A stretch of 29,090 bases of DNA, from the IMG/VR virus record IMGVR_UViG_3300006802_000383, positions 1-29,090 of that record, one strand, 5' to 3'. Position numbers and translations under genes: made by a program. This stretch comes from a virus. The notes beneath the pieces were generated by a model. The model had not been told where the DNA came from and did not search any database. It worked only from the letters and a program-made list of their open reading frames with translations. Shown here piece after piece: positions 1 through 29,090 of the stretch (position 1 is the stretch's first letter; each line of letters begins with the position of its first letter).

Positions 1-10
1 GTCAATCCAC
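1..10. repeat. 10-base terminal identity (left copy)
   Basis: The first ten bases, GTCAATCCAC, are identical to the last ten (29081-29090). This is seen directly. It suggests a circular assembly in which a short overlap was not trimmed, or a very short terminal redundancy. If circular, the methyltransferase gene ending at position 2 is followed, reading leftward, by a run of six T at the far end of the record, as a weak terminator would be. Confidence 0.7.
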
Positions 11-7883: not shown

Positions 7884-7911
7884 TTGAAAAAAAAATAATT
7901 TGTGTTATATT
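7884..7911 (+). promoter_or_regulatory. Rightward promoter for the exonuclease gene
   Basis: TTGAAA (7884-7889), a 16-bp A/T-rich spacer and TATATT (7906-7911) form a sigma70-like promoter about 43 bp upstream of the exonuclease start. It is back-to-back with the leftward early promoter, so the two could be controlled together. Confidence 0.65.
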
Positions 7912-7953
7912 GGAACCAACAAAAAACATCGTCAAAATCGGGACAAAATCACC

Positions 7954-8532
7954 ATGCATAAAAATAATTATCCCCTTCTCTTTGTGGACATTGAAACGAC
8001 ACACCTCGCGTCAACAACGGGCGAAATCATAGAAATCGCAATCATTCGCGAATCACACGACGGGAAAATTGAAACATTTTATTCCAAAATCAAACCCGCC
8101 CATATCCACACCGCGTCAAAACGTGCACTTGAAATCAATCACTATAACGCGCACGAATGGAAGGACGCTCCGACATGGAAGGAAATCGCCCCCGTTGTTG
8201 TAAAATGGTTAAATTGGGGGACCATTGTCGCCCACAATGTCGCGTTCGATTGGAATTATATCGATCACCATGTCAGAATGGCCAAAATCGACCACAAAAT
8301 ATCATGGCGAAAAATCGATACTCAATCACTCGCATGGGAACACCTACCCATGACATCCGCGTCAATGGACAACATTCGCGATTTCTTTGGAATGTCTAAA
8401 GATAAAGCACACACCGCCATGAAAGATGTTGAGGATTGTCGATTCGTGTATCACAAATTGATTCGGTCAAATATATTCATGCGATTGTATTGGAAATTAA
8501 AATTCCAGATTATAACCATTTTTAAAAAATGA
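7954..8532 (+). CDS. DEDDh 3'-5' exonuclease (DnaQ/RNase T-like)
   Basis: A 192-aa exonuclease of the DnaQ-like DEDDh fold, which removes nucleotides from 3' ends using two metal ions. All three motifs are visible: ExoI FVDIETT (Asp12, Glu14), ExoII HNVAFDWNYI (Asp99) and ExoIII HTAMKDVEDC (His153, Asp158). The length equals that of a stand-alone proofreading or RNase T-like nuclease. No phage polymerase is encoded, so it may process DNA ends, degrade host nucleic acid or assist the host polymerase; which one is unknown. I start at 7954 since an upstream start at 7900 would overlap the promoter's -10. It is one of only two plus-strand genes, and its end overlaps the convergent MT-A70 gene by 11 bp. 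Confidence 0.9.
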   Translation: MHKNNYPLLFVDIETTHLASTTGEIIEIAIIRESHDGKIETFYSKIKPAHIHTASKRALEINHYNAHEWKDAPTWKEIAPVVVKWLNWGTIVAHNVAFDWNYIDHHVRMAKIDHKISWRKIDTQSLAWEHLPMTSASMDNIRDFFGMSKDKAHTAMKDVEDCRFVYHKLIRSNIFMRLYWKLKFQIITIFKK

Positions 8533-9097
8533 TTTCATTCCCCCATGAATCCCACCCGTCATCGGTTTGACGCGCGAACAATTCAATCCTCGGAACGTCA
8601 CCAAACAATTGAACAATCCGGTCACGTATTTCGGCCGGTTTTTTTGAATGTTTGTCAATCGGGGAATTGATCGCACTTGAAACGGAATGAGATTTGACGA
8701 ACAATTTGTCATCGGATTGTTTGATTCCCACGTTCCCGCGCGTCGCCAATAGACAAACCTCACAATTTGATTTTGTATAGCTACCGACCCCGAAAAACAG
8801 TCCCCCCGATTTTGTGGTTTTATGCCATGAAAATCCTAGTGTTTTATATTTGAATCCCCATGACGCGATGACGTCCAATGATTCAACCAATTTCGGGAAC
8901 GTCACCCACATGAACAGAACACAATTATCATCTGCGATTTCGTGGACGGGCATGGCCTTAATTTCGTCAATCGTCATCGTCGGATAATGTCCCATAGCAC
9001 CGCCCCCGAATTTTGTTTTCGGATTTGATCGTTTGTTGTACGACCATGGGGGATCGCAATATATAATTTGATATTTTTTATCGGGAAATGGAATCAT
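8522..9097 (-). CDS. MT-A70 family DNA adenine N6-methyltransferase, copy 2
   Basis: A 191-aa paralogue of the methyltransferase at 2-571: both have YxIIYCDPPW, GGAxxHYPTMT, LFMW, WGFKY.T.GF.W, SEKP/SKKP, IELFARQ and GWD.WGNE. The catalytic DPPW is at residues 15-18. Differences lie mainly in the central 110-140 region (SDDKLFVKSHSVSSAINSPI here), which may alter target choice. It is the last gene of late operon B, after the lysis genes, so it would be made late while copy 1 is made early. Its end overlaps the convergent exonuclease gene by 11 bp with no terminator visible between them. Family certain; specificity unknown. Confidence 0.93.
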   Translation of the reverse strand: MIPFPDKKYQIIYCDPPWSYNKRSNPKTKFGGGAMGHYPTMTIDEIKAMPVHEIADDNCVLFMWVTFPKLVESLDVIASWGFKYKTLGFSWHKTTKSGGLFFGVGSYTKSNCEVCLLATRGNVGIKQSDDKLFVKSHSVSSAINSPIDKHSKKPAEIRDRIVQLFGDVPRIELFARQTDDGWDSWGNEIIF

Positions 9098-9409: not shown

Positions 9410-9613
9410 CTATGAATTAATTATGATTGTAATGATTTGAGGAATGTCCATCACATGATCAACAATGATTTTTTCAATTTCTTGTTTGGTGACTTTTCGT
9501 CCCCCGTCACTGTCCAATTGTTTCGCCTGTTCGACATCGTCGACCAATTTGAAAATTATCGGGGTTATGGCCTTGACGATTTTCGCAAAGTAAGCAATTC
9601 TATCGAAATTCAT
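9410..9613 (-). CDS. Small lysis-region protein of unknown function
   Basis: A 67-aa protein between the amidase and the putative holin. The first 25 residues are hydrophobic-amphipathic (RIAYFAKIVKAITPIIFKLV), then an EF-hand-like acidic stretch DSDGGRKVTKQE and a hydrophobic C-terminus (IPQIITIIINS). Similar small proteins with an acidic calcium-loop-like stretch sit near phage lysis genes, which makes a holin or antiholin role possible. I start at 9613, where ATGA overlaps the amidase stop and GGAGCG lies upstream; a longer frame would extend 57 bp into the amidase gene. Confidence 0.58.
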   Translation of the reverse strand: MNFDRIAYFAKIVKAITPIIFKLVDDVEQAKQLDSDGGRKVTKQEIEKIIVDHVMDIPQIITIIINS

Positions 9614-25132: not shown

Positions 25133-26575
25133 TTATAGTTGAATGTTAATTTTTTGAATTTTTTGTAGTCGTTCAATTGCTTCGACCTCGTCTAGATCGG
25201 GATGTAAAATTTGTATAGCTTCAATTTTTGACATCAATCCCGCGTTCAATAGTGCGAGGATATGTTCGCGTTGACTTTTTGATTCCTCGGGTGATAATTC
25301 AATCGCATGATACTCGACACGATACCCCGATTCGGGGAAATCAGTATTGAAAAAACGATTCAAAATTTTCGCGCTAATTTCTAAAGTTTCCACATCACCA
25401 CGACGGAACGCGGGCGAATACTTTCTTTGACTTTCGCGAAGGGATGAACGCGAAATCGCGATTGCATATCCCGACCGCGGGTCACCTGTCATTTTCTGTA
25501 CGTCCGCCCCGTTGATTCCACCAGATGACGCGAGGCGTCGTTCGTATATGGTGATTGATTCCAACATTTTTTCGATATCCGCGCCCGCTTGAAATTGTCC
25601 GATTTGCGGTTGTTGTCCCGATTGCAAGTCGGGATCGGGATTGAACAACAAAATCGATGACGGATCGGTCGAAATCGCATTTCGTCGCGATTGCAAATTG
25701 TTATCAAACAAGTCCATCCCCGCGGGCATGGCTCCTAACATGTAGCGTTGAGGATGACTACAATTTTTTGAAAGGAACAGAAAGAACGAATACAATGTCG
25801 CGGCATTCAGCGACCCCGCGATCAATTCAGAATTATGAAACGCGTCAAACAATTCCCCCGTAATTTCCGCATGATAAATTGAATAGGGAATGAACGGGAT
25901 TCCGTTTGAATCAATATAGGGATACATGTCGCCCGATGTCGATTGACCGAGATATTTTTCTGTCACATCGTCAAGGATTTGACCATTTTGATCGATACAA
26001 TGAATTTCATATATTGGAAAATCGGGATCGCGCAAATCAAACGCGTCAATCGTCCATTCGTAATCTTTCGACAAATGACACCACCGAAGGCGGTATTCAT
26101 GCAACAAATGAGGACGGGACGGATCGCCCGCGGGGGATTCCGCATAAATCATATCGGGGGTGACAATTCGATATATCAACCCGTCGAATGTTTCATTGAT
26201 GTCGATCCGAAGAAAACATTCGCGTAATCCCAAAGTAAAAAATTGCACTCTTTGCATTAAAGGCCACAAACCCGCGTCATCGATGAAACCACCGCGACCG
26301 AGTAATTTGTCCGCTTGTCCTTCGTATAATGTTTGAACAGCGACGTCGGGCGGTTCTTGATACAAAGCACACAACGCCCCCGTCACTGATTTAAAAACAT
26401 TCGAGGACATATCGGGGACGCCCCATGTCGCTTGACGATCAATCGTGATATGATTTCCAATTTCCCGAACCAAATCATCATGCCATTGTCCACACAACAT
26501 GCGACGTCTTAGTGACGTATGGTTCCACCTTTTTTCGGTTTCGGTATCGGGGGCGACGGGTTTCATCGGGATCAT
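25133..26575 (-). CDS. Portal protein
   Basis: A 480-aa protein with the pattern of siphovirus portals: an N-terminal RMLCGQWHDDLVREIGNHI, the core VFKSVTGALCALYQEPPDV, and a C-terminal helical section with SGYAIAISRSSLRESQRKYS (the crown or stem region) followed by a charged barrel-like end (SPEESKSQREHILALLNAGL). It forms the dodecameric DNA entry ring, to which terminase docks. It lies directly after the large terminase, as expected, with TAGGAGAACA upstream. Confidence 0.87.
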   Translation of the reverse strand: MIPMKPVAPDTETEKRWNHTSLRRRMLCGQWHDDLVREIGNHITIDRQATWGVPDMSSNVFKSVTGALCALYQEPPDVAVQTLYEGQADKLLGRGGFIDDAGLWPLMQRVQFFTLGLRECFLRIDINETFDGLIYRIVTPDMIYAESPAGDPSRPHLLHEYRLRWCHLSKDYEWTIDAFDLRDPDFPIYEIHCIDQNGQILDDVTEKYLGQSTSGDMYPYIDSNGIPFIPYSIYHAEITGELFDAFHNSELIAGSLNAATLYSFFLFLSKNCSHPQRYMLGAMPAGMDLFDNNLQSRRNAISTDPSSILLFNPDPDLQSGQQPQIGQFQAGADIEKMLESITIYERRLASSGGINGADVQKMTGDPRSGYAIAISRSSLRESQRKYSPAFRRGDVETLEISAKILNRFFNTDFPESGYRVEYHAIELSPEESKSQREHILALLNAGLMSKIEAIQILHPDLDEVEAIERLQKIQKINIQL

Positions 26576-26584
26576 GTTGTTCTC

Positions 26585-27328
26585 CTATTTATTGATAAAT
26601 ACTTTCGATTGTTTGGGGGTTCGGTATTGCACATCGACAATCGGCATGGTCGCATATCGCAACGCGTCGACCGCATGTTTGTATGGTGAATTGGGATCCA
26701 TATAACCCGATTTTTTCATTGTCCACATCGTCAAGGACTTAATTAATCCCTTGCACGACGGAAAAATTTGAAACCTCGAATCGGACATCAATTCATGTAA
26801 AACACGCGTCCCATAATACACTGAATATTTAGGTTTGTAAGCGGTACGAATTCGAAATGGTAGTTTGTCGCGAGGATACCCCAAAACATGCGCGAATGCA
26901 CTTGTCAACATTTGATTCGACATTCGTCCCCCGTTGTTTGAACCACCATGGGCGCGGTCGCCCGTCCATCGATGGACATGCGCAATTTCCAGATCATTTC
27001 GACGCAACATGGCGATGATACCCTTCGCATGGACATCCGCACCAGCACCACTCGCGACATATTCATCAACACAATAAACAAGGGGACGCGATTGATCGGT
27101 GATGTCCACCGCGACCAAAATCGCGACTTGTGACGATACATCATGACCATGGTCAATACCAATCGACCAAACGAATTGACGCGGTTGTTCGACCCCGTTT
27201 TTGTCCCGATATGTCGCGGGCGGTTTCAAGTCTGAAATTAAATCCTTCGTGAAATTCTCAAAAATTCGCCCGTCGGGAATTCCCCCGTCCCAATCACCAT
27301 TAATTCGCGCCTCACGATCTAAAGGCAA
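26585..27328 (-). CDS. Large terminase, C-terminal nuclease part (after in-frame stop)
   Basis: The nuclease half of the packaging motor, an RNase H-like fold that cuts concatemeric DNA. Acidic metal ligands are visible in SIGIDHGHD (about residue 59), CVDEY (about 88), TGDRAHGG (about 124) and the C-terminal HAVDALRYA. This frame is continuous with the ATPase gene at 27344-28060: only a TAA and five codons (LSNSY) separate the two, and the whole would be a 491-aa terminase. The listed start is a TTG without a ribosome site, and no ATG occurs near the front. Probably a nonsense-mutated or readthrough C-terminus, not a free gene. Confidence 0.8.
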   Translation of the reverse strand: MPLDREARINGDWDGGIPDGRIFENFTKDLISDLKPPATYRDKNGVEQPRQFVWSIGIDHGHDVSSQVAILVAVDITDQSRPLVYCVDEYVASGAGADVHAKGIIAMLRRNDLEIAHVHRWTGDRAHGGSNNGGRMSNQMLTSAFAHVLGYPRDKLPFRIRTAYKPKYSVYYGTRVLHELMSDSRFQIFPSCKGLIKSLTMWTMKKSGYMDPNSPYKHAVDALRYATMPIVDVQYRTPKQSKVFINK

Positions 27329-27343
27329 ATAGGAATTCGACAG

Positions 27344-28060
27344 TTAATCAATTTCTTCTTGTGACATCATCGGGGATTTTAAACCAATTGGCCATGTGTT
27401 TTCGACTGTCAGTTTCCCCACGTGTTCCGAAATGACACCATCTTCAACCAATTTTTTGAGATAGTCAACGGGAACCCCGACGGGCGTCATGGTGATTCCG
27501 ATGGAACCTTTCGTTCGGGTCGTTCGTCCTAAAATTTCCCCGAAAATGTTCGCGGGCGGGGGTTCGTCAAGTAAAATCCAATCAACCGAACCACTAGCTA
27601 AACCAATCGTCCCGCGATTTCCCCCCGCTTGATTTGTGGTTTTGAACCTCAGAACCGACCCGTTTTTGAAACGCACAACAGGTGCGCCCGTCGCGCGATA
27701 CCCTTTTCCGTCAACGAATTCAACGTCGGGATGTAATTCGTGTTTGGGAACGTATTCATGAAATTTACACATGATGATTTTTGATTGTTCCCACGAATGA
27801 CAAATTATCCATGCCTCAATCGGTGGCGGGGGGACTTTTTTGAACGGATGTTTTCCCAGAAGGCGATAAACAGTTTCGACCGATCCGACAAGCGTTTTCC
27901 CGATTTGATTTCCTCCACGCAACATGACGATTTTATTCGTATCTTTTAGAAAAGCCAATTGAACGGCCGTCGGACAAAAGAACCGCAACGGATCGCGTTC
28001 AGCTTCGTCAGATAGTCGCATGGTATTTTTCGCGATGGTACGAAGGGACGATAAATTCAT
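27344..28060 (-). CDS. Large terminase, N-terminal ATPase part
   Basis: The ATPase domain (238 aa) that powers DNA packaging. It has Walker A GGNQIGKT at 49-56, Walker B WILLDEP at about 161-167 with catalytic Glu166, and the coupling motif GITMTP at about 188-193. The frame ends in TAA right after ...SQEEID and resumes as LSNSYLPLDREARINGDW, which is how an intact terminase reads at the ATPase-nuclease border. The start overlaps the HTH gene stop by ATGA. Alone, this part could hydrolyse ATP but not cut DNA. Confidence 0.85.
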   Translation of the reverse strand: MNLSSLRTIAKNTMRLSDEAERDPLRFFCPTAVQLAFLKDTNKIVMLRGGNQIGKTLVGSVETVYRLLGKHPFKKVPPPPIEAWIICHSWEQSKIIMCKFHEYVPKHELHPDVEFVDGKGYRATGAPVVRFKNGSVLRFKTTNQAGGNRGTIGLASGSVDWILLDEPPPANIFGEILGRTTRTKGSIGITMTPVGVPVDYLKKLVEDGVISEHVGKLTVENTWPIGLKSPMMSQEEID

Positions 28061-28317
28061 TTCACTAAAATCCTAATGATTTCACACATCACATCGGGAC
28101 GGGGACGTTTTTCAAGTTTGGAAAACAATGTCGCCACCGCAACCAAATAATGATATGACGGGTCGACTTTTCCCGTTAGATAGTTTCGAGTAGTCAAATA
28201 ACCATATCCGATTTTATCATTGAAATGTTTTAGTTTCATGTCATGTTTGATCAAACGGGACGCGACCCATTCACCGAATTCCGTTTTGATATATCGTTCG
28301 ATTGTATATGGTTTCAT
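28057..28317 (-). CDS. Small HTH-like protein between the terminase subunits
   Basis: An 86-aa protein that resembles the Cro-like HTH proteins at 3527 and 6120: FGEWVASRLIKHDMKLKHFN, then a helix-turn-helix-like IGYGYLTTRNYLTGKVDPSYHYL. It overlaps both neighbours by ATGA, so it is made with the terminase subunits. It could bind DNA near the packaging site or regulate late genes; either is inference. AGGGGGAAA ribosome site. Confidence 0.65.
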   Translation of the reverse strand: MKPYTIERYIKTEFGEWVASRLIKHDMKLKHFNDKIGYGYLTTRNYLTGKVDPSYHYLVAVATLFSKLEKRPRPDVMCEIIRILVK

Positions 28318-28862
28318 TTTTCCCCCTGTTTGAATGGAATAACATTAGAGTAATCGACGGACAACACATCGATCAATTTCTCTTTCAAAATCGGGGGTAG
28401 TCCATTAACCGCGATAGCGATTGTTTGAAAGATTTCATCGGGATCGGTCATCCCGTCCATTTCTTCAAGCTCACGACGCATGGCGGTGATTTCGTCATGT
28501 GTTTGGATATGCAATCGATGTAATTGGGGCAATACTTGAACCGATCCACGAAGGCGCGTCGAAATAATATCCCCCGCGATTTCGACCAATTTCGCCCGTC
28601 GGAATTGAAGGGGGTCATCGATGATTGATGTTCCGTTCGTTTGTTCCACATTTGAGGACGGGACAATTCCCCCGCTCGAATCTCTTTGTTCGGGCGGGAT
28701 GTTAATTTTGTTGTCCTCGTTGACGATACGTTTGATCGTTGTGTGACTACATCCAAATTTTTCACCCAATTGACGATAACTATAATTGCCTGTTCGGTAT
28801 AAATTCAACACCTCGGATCGTTCGTTCGGTGACAAGTGTGATTTTTTTTGTGATTTTCCCAT
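28314..28862 (-). CDS. Terminase small subunit candidate
   Basis: A 182-aa protein that probably recognises phage DNA for packaging. The first 50 residues form a helix-turn-helix: SPNERSEVLNLYRTGNYSYR, then QLGEKFGCSHTTIKRIVNE. After a disordered Ser/Asn-rich linker, the second half is helical (AKLVEIAGDIISTRLRGSVQ and on), as expected of an oligomerisation core, and the tail is basic. Position directly upstream of the large terminase genes supports the call. It is the first gene of late operon A. Ribosome site is weak (AAAGAATC). Confidence 0.75.
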   Translation of the reverse strand: MGKSQKKSHLSPNERSEVLNLYRTGNYSYRQLGEKFGCSHTTIKRIVNEDNKINIPPEQRDSSGGIVPSSNVEQTNGTSIIDDPLQFRRAKLVEIAGDIISTRLRGSVQVLPQLHRLHIQTHDEITAMRRELEEMDGMTDPDEIFQTIAIAVNGLPPILKEKLIDVLSVDYSNVIPFKQGEK

Positions 28863-29038: not shown

Positions 29039-29080
29039 TATGGAACGAAATATATGACGATTTCGAGAAAAAAGGTTGTG

Positions 29081-29090
29081 GTCAATCCAC
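29081..29090. repeat. 10-base terminal identity (right copy)
   Basis: GTCAATCCAC, identical to bases 1-10. Joined to the left end it gives a continuous circle; the leftward CCTTTTTT just beside it (29067-29074, complement strand) could help end the early methyltransferase transcript. Confidence 0.65.

Follow-up and report, generated by a model that had tools for sequence, protein, structure and literature searches.

The large terminase (TerL) is essential, and both of its domains are thought to be necessary in one chain. Tailed phages encode the two domains in one uninterrupted reading frame. The TerLs of phage D6E (PDB 5oe8), T4 (gp17; 3cpe), and HK97 (6z6d) hold an ATPase and an RNase H-like nuclease together, and in cos phages it is the large terminase that makes the cut at the genome ends (PMC10359639).

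The terL gene described here departs from this arrangement: on the minus strand of a 29-kb uncultured phage genome, its frame is interrupted by a TAA at 27346-27344. The window, by which we mean the whole stretch of DNA analyzed (29,090 nucleotides; IMGVR_UViG_3300006802_000383), has the same gene order as a lineage of uncultured marine/estuarine cos-phages around IMGVR_UViG_3300033183_000214 (L186) and 3300044723_004780 (L093). In that lineage, the capsid protein is 83-85% identical and TerL 75% identical to the window's, but TerL is uninterrupted. Phage DSL-LC06 (OR003941), the sole match to the capsid protein in the phage collection (27.6% identity), has a genome of ~30 kb in which TerL, portal, scaffold, and capsid are ordered as in the window; its annotated TerL is a single 417-codon gene. 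The features around the stop are as follows.

28314..28862, minus strand: terminase small subunit-like HTH protein (PHROG 1206, 8.6e-5; HTH_38), two genes upstream of terL
28060-27344, minus strand: first part of terL, ATPase domain; ATG start, 238 codons, then TAA
27332..27361, minus strand: predicted helix holding the TAA (residues 234-243 of the AlphaFold2 model)
27346-27344, minus strand: in-frame TAA, codon 239, interrupting terL
27343-26585, minus strand: second part of terL, end of the ATPase lid region and RNase H-like nuclease; ends TAG
25133..26575, minus strand: portal protein (PHROG 104), directly downstream of terL, intact, ends TAA

The two parts of terL are one gene in a single frame. 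An earlier note, made from the sequence alone, had claimed that the ATPase and nuclease frames are the same and that only the TAA lies between them; the ORF listing and the sequence bear this out. From 27343 the nuclease frame is open for 252 codons, and the ORF that begins at TTG (27328-26585) encodes 247 amino acids. Read through, the gene yields a 491-amino-acid product that matches the PHROG 2 terminase large subunit (3.4e-17, residues 26-480), with Pfam Terminase_6N above cutoff in the N part and TerL PHROGs 5653, 10250, and 6672 in the C part. The first part carries the Walker A motif GGNQIGKT (near 27919-27893, minus strand), the Walker B motif LLDE with its catalytic E (near 27577-27563, minus strand), and the coupling motif TMTP, all of which are invariant or almost so in TerL alignment A4. 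The acidic residues of the nuclease (D303, D332, D368, and D465) are unchanged across 18 TerLs, and the alignment with 31 relative ORFs runs collinearly through the stop, far beyond chance.

Structure prediction gives the same picture. The AlphaFold2 model of the read-through protein has a mean pLDDT of 84, and in a fold search it aligned over its length with the D6E TerL (E 6e-17) and also matched T4 gp17 and HK97 TerL, with the ATPase and nuclease together as in those proteins. All three share just 11-15% sequence identity with the window's TerL, and the stop at codon 239 is the window's own; a sequence-based search of solved structures with TerL returned no match. The earlier expectation that reading through the stop gives a normal 491-amino-acid TerL thus agrees with the PHROG, Pfam, and fold matches. 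The TAA site is predicted to fall in mid-helix, ~60 residues ahead of the nuclease fold, and not at the border between ATPase and nuclease.

No relative shares the stop. Beyond a second contig of the same phage (L002, below), a profile scan for TerL found 79 new loci, which reduced to 69 distinct TerLs, 42-75% identical, once duplicates were removed. Aligning close relatives, as the earlier note had advised, placed a sense codon opposite 27346-27344 in 69/69 of these, encoding R (19), A (13), D (10), S (9), Q (6), E (5), N (4), T (2), or K (1). Column 239 is likewise sense in the extra relatives recovered through the capsid protein, and none of the 173 full-length TerL loci (189 TerL loci in all) has an interior stop. 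Judged from these alignments, the stop is private to this phage population and sits at a tolerant position. An intron or insertion was rejected, as the relatives align without gaps there. In terL genes reported to carry group I introns the frame is interrupted too, but the window has one codon and no inserted DNA.

One TerL relative, 46% identical, lies on a 14.7-kb alphaproteobacterial contig assigned to a Rhodospirillaceae MAG (PBMU01000001.1). The contig may come from a phage and have been binned with the MAG, or it may hint weakly at the host; a single such hit does not suffice to name Rhodospirillaceae as the host.

Elsewhere in this genome TAA behaves as a terminator. Relatives end at the same place as the TAA-ended portal (40/40), capsid (39/39), scaffold (39/39, 35 of these with TGA or TAG), and tail gene (30/30), and the same holds for other genes that end in TAA, whereas 0/31 end where the ATPase ORF ends. 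These comparisons show that TAA is a genuine terminator here. They uphold the earlier claim that TAA ends other genes and is not generally reassigned, and a genome-wide change of code was rejected: TAA ends conserved genes at homologous positions and interrupts terL only. The body of every other window gene with homologs is free of in-frame stops and frameshifts. Most of the apparent stops in a first comparison came from chance ORFs in other frames of the relatives and were set aside by a stricter test; coding-strand stops near 9419-9509, 17830, and 28871 each stem from one relative's overlapping or N-extended ORF and break no gene. The small subunit-like gene, present in 28 relative loci, and the portal gene flank terL in the usual order.

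Just before the tape measure gene, two minus-strand ORFs (18352-18011 and 18317-17799) overlap in different frames. Both are conserved in 29 relatives, and together they resemble tail assembly chaperones produced by programmed frameshifting. This one 29-kb genome also carries two distinct genes for MT-A70-type adenine methyltransferases (2-595 and 8522-9097, minus strand). An RNase_T/DnaQ-like exonuclease gene with homologs in two relatives lies on the plus strand (7900-8532), where the surrounding gene-like ORFs are all on the minus strand.

Its ends show the window to be a complete cos-type genome of a tailed phage of ~29 kb; these ends, which the earlier note had missed, bear directly on the question of a working terminase. 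A 10-bp direct terminal repeat, GTGGATTGAC in the minus-strand reading, stands at both of its ends, as expected from filled-in 10-base cohesive ends; in gene order, the window starts GTGGATTGACCACAACCTTTTTTCTC and finishes GTGGATTGAC.

29081..29090, minus strand: left cohesive end GTGGATTGAC, the first 10 bases in gene order
1..10, minus strand: right cohesive end GTGGATTGAC, the same 10 bases

Relatives end in the same manner. L186 has CTTGCCTGAC at both ends and shares the window's cos-end motif. Exact end repeats of 8-11 bp are found in G021, G022 (TAGCGACGAC at both ends), G013 (GTGTGTAACCT), and G023, whose 8-base repeat has one additional base after it at the end; the end repeat of G010 matches at 7/8 bases. 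In a scan of 2.9 million contigs, the motif GACCACRAYATTTTTTCTCTC, which neighbors the repeat, lay 5-7 bases from a contig end in 17/17 viral contigs (L218-L233 and L109), and the window carries the variant GACCACAACCTTTTTTCTC at ~29055-29090. The terminal repeat and the motif at contig ends together mean that the sampled DNA was cos-cut. The TAA-bearing population therefore had terminase activity from somewhere.

The TAA is found in a second contig. L002 (IMGVR_UViG_3300025889_016916, 4,037 bp) begins at the same base as the window and is base-identical to window positions 29090-25054, TAA included. When the stop and the cos end were used as search patterns, no other copy of the phage turned up, and its capsid relatives reach 85% identity at most. 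Since one de Bruijn assembly would rarely report an identical 4-kb stretch two times, we treat the window and L002 as separate assemblies and take the TAA to be real in the DNA.

The second half of terL shows no sign of decay. It violates 0 of 51 columns that are 95% conserved, compared with 3 of 50 for the first half, and its dN against L092 is 0.24, compared with 0.21; dS is too saturated for the ratio to be informative. On these two measures we rejected decay of this half. Therefore, either the stop is recent or the full-length protein is still selected.

We consider it most plausible, though still tentatively, that this is the ordinary single-chain TerL of a cos phage with a recent ochre nonsense codon, and that full-length TerL comes from copies supplied in trans. 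The nonsense mutation was among the options raised in the earlier note, and it gains ground here: the stop is absent from all relatives, its column varies, no other gene that can be compared is broken, and TAA terminates elsewhere. An ordinary terL would have acquired one ochre codon recently. With the stop read as a stop, most translation ends after residue 238, and the product would be an ATPase fragment (residues 1-238) lacking the nuclease. Full-length terminase would be supplied by the intact terL of another phage, from this or a related population, that infects the same cell, and the TAA genome would be a young, complemented or leaky defective allele. We infer the recent age of the stop, the failure of the fragment to work, and complementation as the source of TerL. 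Complementation has this standing because the searches recovered no intact copy of this phage: the one other record that spans the site carries TAA as well, and even the closest relatives with an intact TerL reach only 75% protein identity. Against complementation, the nonsense allele is the consensus in two assemblies, whereas a helper-dependent allele would be expected to be rare.

It is conceivable, if on the unlikely side, that the TAA is fixed and that the phage obtains full-length TerL from this gene through ochre suppression or leaky decoding, for example by an unusual host tRNA or by near-cognate insertion of glutamine. A motor needs only about five TerL chains, the C half is fully constrained, and cos-cut ends call for a working terminase. 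Codon 239 tolerates many residues; its column accepts R/A/D/S/Q/E/N/T/K, glutamine among them, and E. coli inserts glutamine at UAA (cited in PMC5289835 and PMC9481147). Directly downstream of the stop stands C rather than U, the base of strong termination (PMC5289835). However, UAA is the stop with the least readthrough (PMC5289835), and in Pseudomonas the basal readthrough rate at UAG is 0.005-0.01% (PMC9481147). Efficient suppression would also lengthen the portal by 226, the scaffold by 75, and the capsid by 51 residues. The phage has no tRNA gene in the window, the RNA structure downstream of the stop is unremarkable (z -0.78, not significant), and features of programmed readthrough are missing, in that the stop is not conserved and no stimulatory structure was found. 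Rather doubtful, in our judgment, is the proposal that TerL is normal and the TAA a sequencing, assembly, or consensus error or a low-coverage minority variant. Its appeal is that the stop occurs in no relative, that the rest of the genome is intact, and that the cos-cut ends imply a working terminase. The window and L002 may also be two assemblies of the same reads; L133 and L134, two other loci of the dataset family, are likewise 100% identical over 8.9 kb. Yet the window and L002, separately assembled, agree on the TAA, which makes a pure assembly error unlikely, and no other error-like break occurs in the 29 kb. The earlier note had held that a sense codon in relatives would make the stop a simple error; the relatives do carry a sense codon, but the repeat of the TAA in L002 goes against that conclusion. 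We give hardly any credence to a ribosome hop over the stop, from the GAT before it to the GAT ten codons on, or to a changed code. The in-frame GAT pair does flank the region, but skipping from one to the other would cost the protein the conserved LP of S-Y-L-P-x-D-R. Many genes in this genome stop at a TAA placed precisely at the end point seen in relatives, and the gap-free alignment with relatives shows no intron or insertion.

A two-part motor by design is unlikely, and we think it very improbable that a separate nuclease chain is made by termination-reinitiation at CTG 27343 or TTG 27328. Each ORF would hold one domain function, the C half is conserved, and CTG lies directly after the stop with TTG five codons on. 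Neither codon has a Shine-Dalgarno (SD) site: the energy upstream of the CTG is -1.6 kcal/mol and that upstream of the TTG is 0, whereas 21 phage genes range from -3 to -11 and the background has a median of -2.4. Nor is there an ATG or GTG close to the stop, and no conserved or useful start for the nuclease half was found. The earlier statement that the second part has neither a ribosome site nor an ATG therefore holds, but the true two-part motor that the same note had listed does not fare well. No natural split is shared by any of the 69 distinct relatives, and the break would fall inside a predicted helix ~60 residues ahead of the nuclease fold. Splitting T4 gp17 at the linker keeps both activities but abolishes translocation (PMC3012670). 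Our literature search found no precedent for split or readthrough terminases.

As a single allele in one population, the interrupted terL says little on terminase design. There is a small chance that a thriving cos phage carries the TAA as a fixed allele, in which case the full-length motor would arise only via low-frequency ochre decoding (or as two separately made chains) and the stop in the motor gene would set packaging. The motif GACCACRAYATTTTTTCTCTC is a cos marker for the whole uncultured lineage, and with so sharply defined a cos end, contigs that reach both ends are complete packaged genomes. A stop in the terL of a genome with terminase-cut ends points to a complemented defective genome or to natural suppression.
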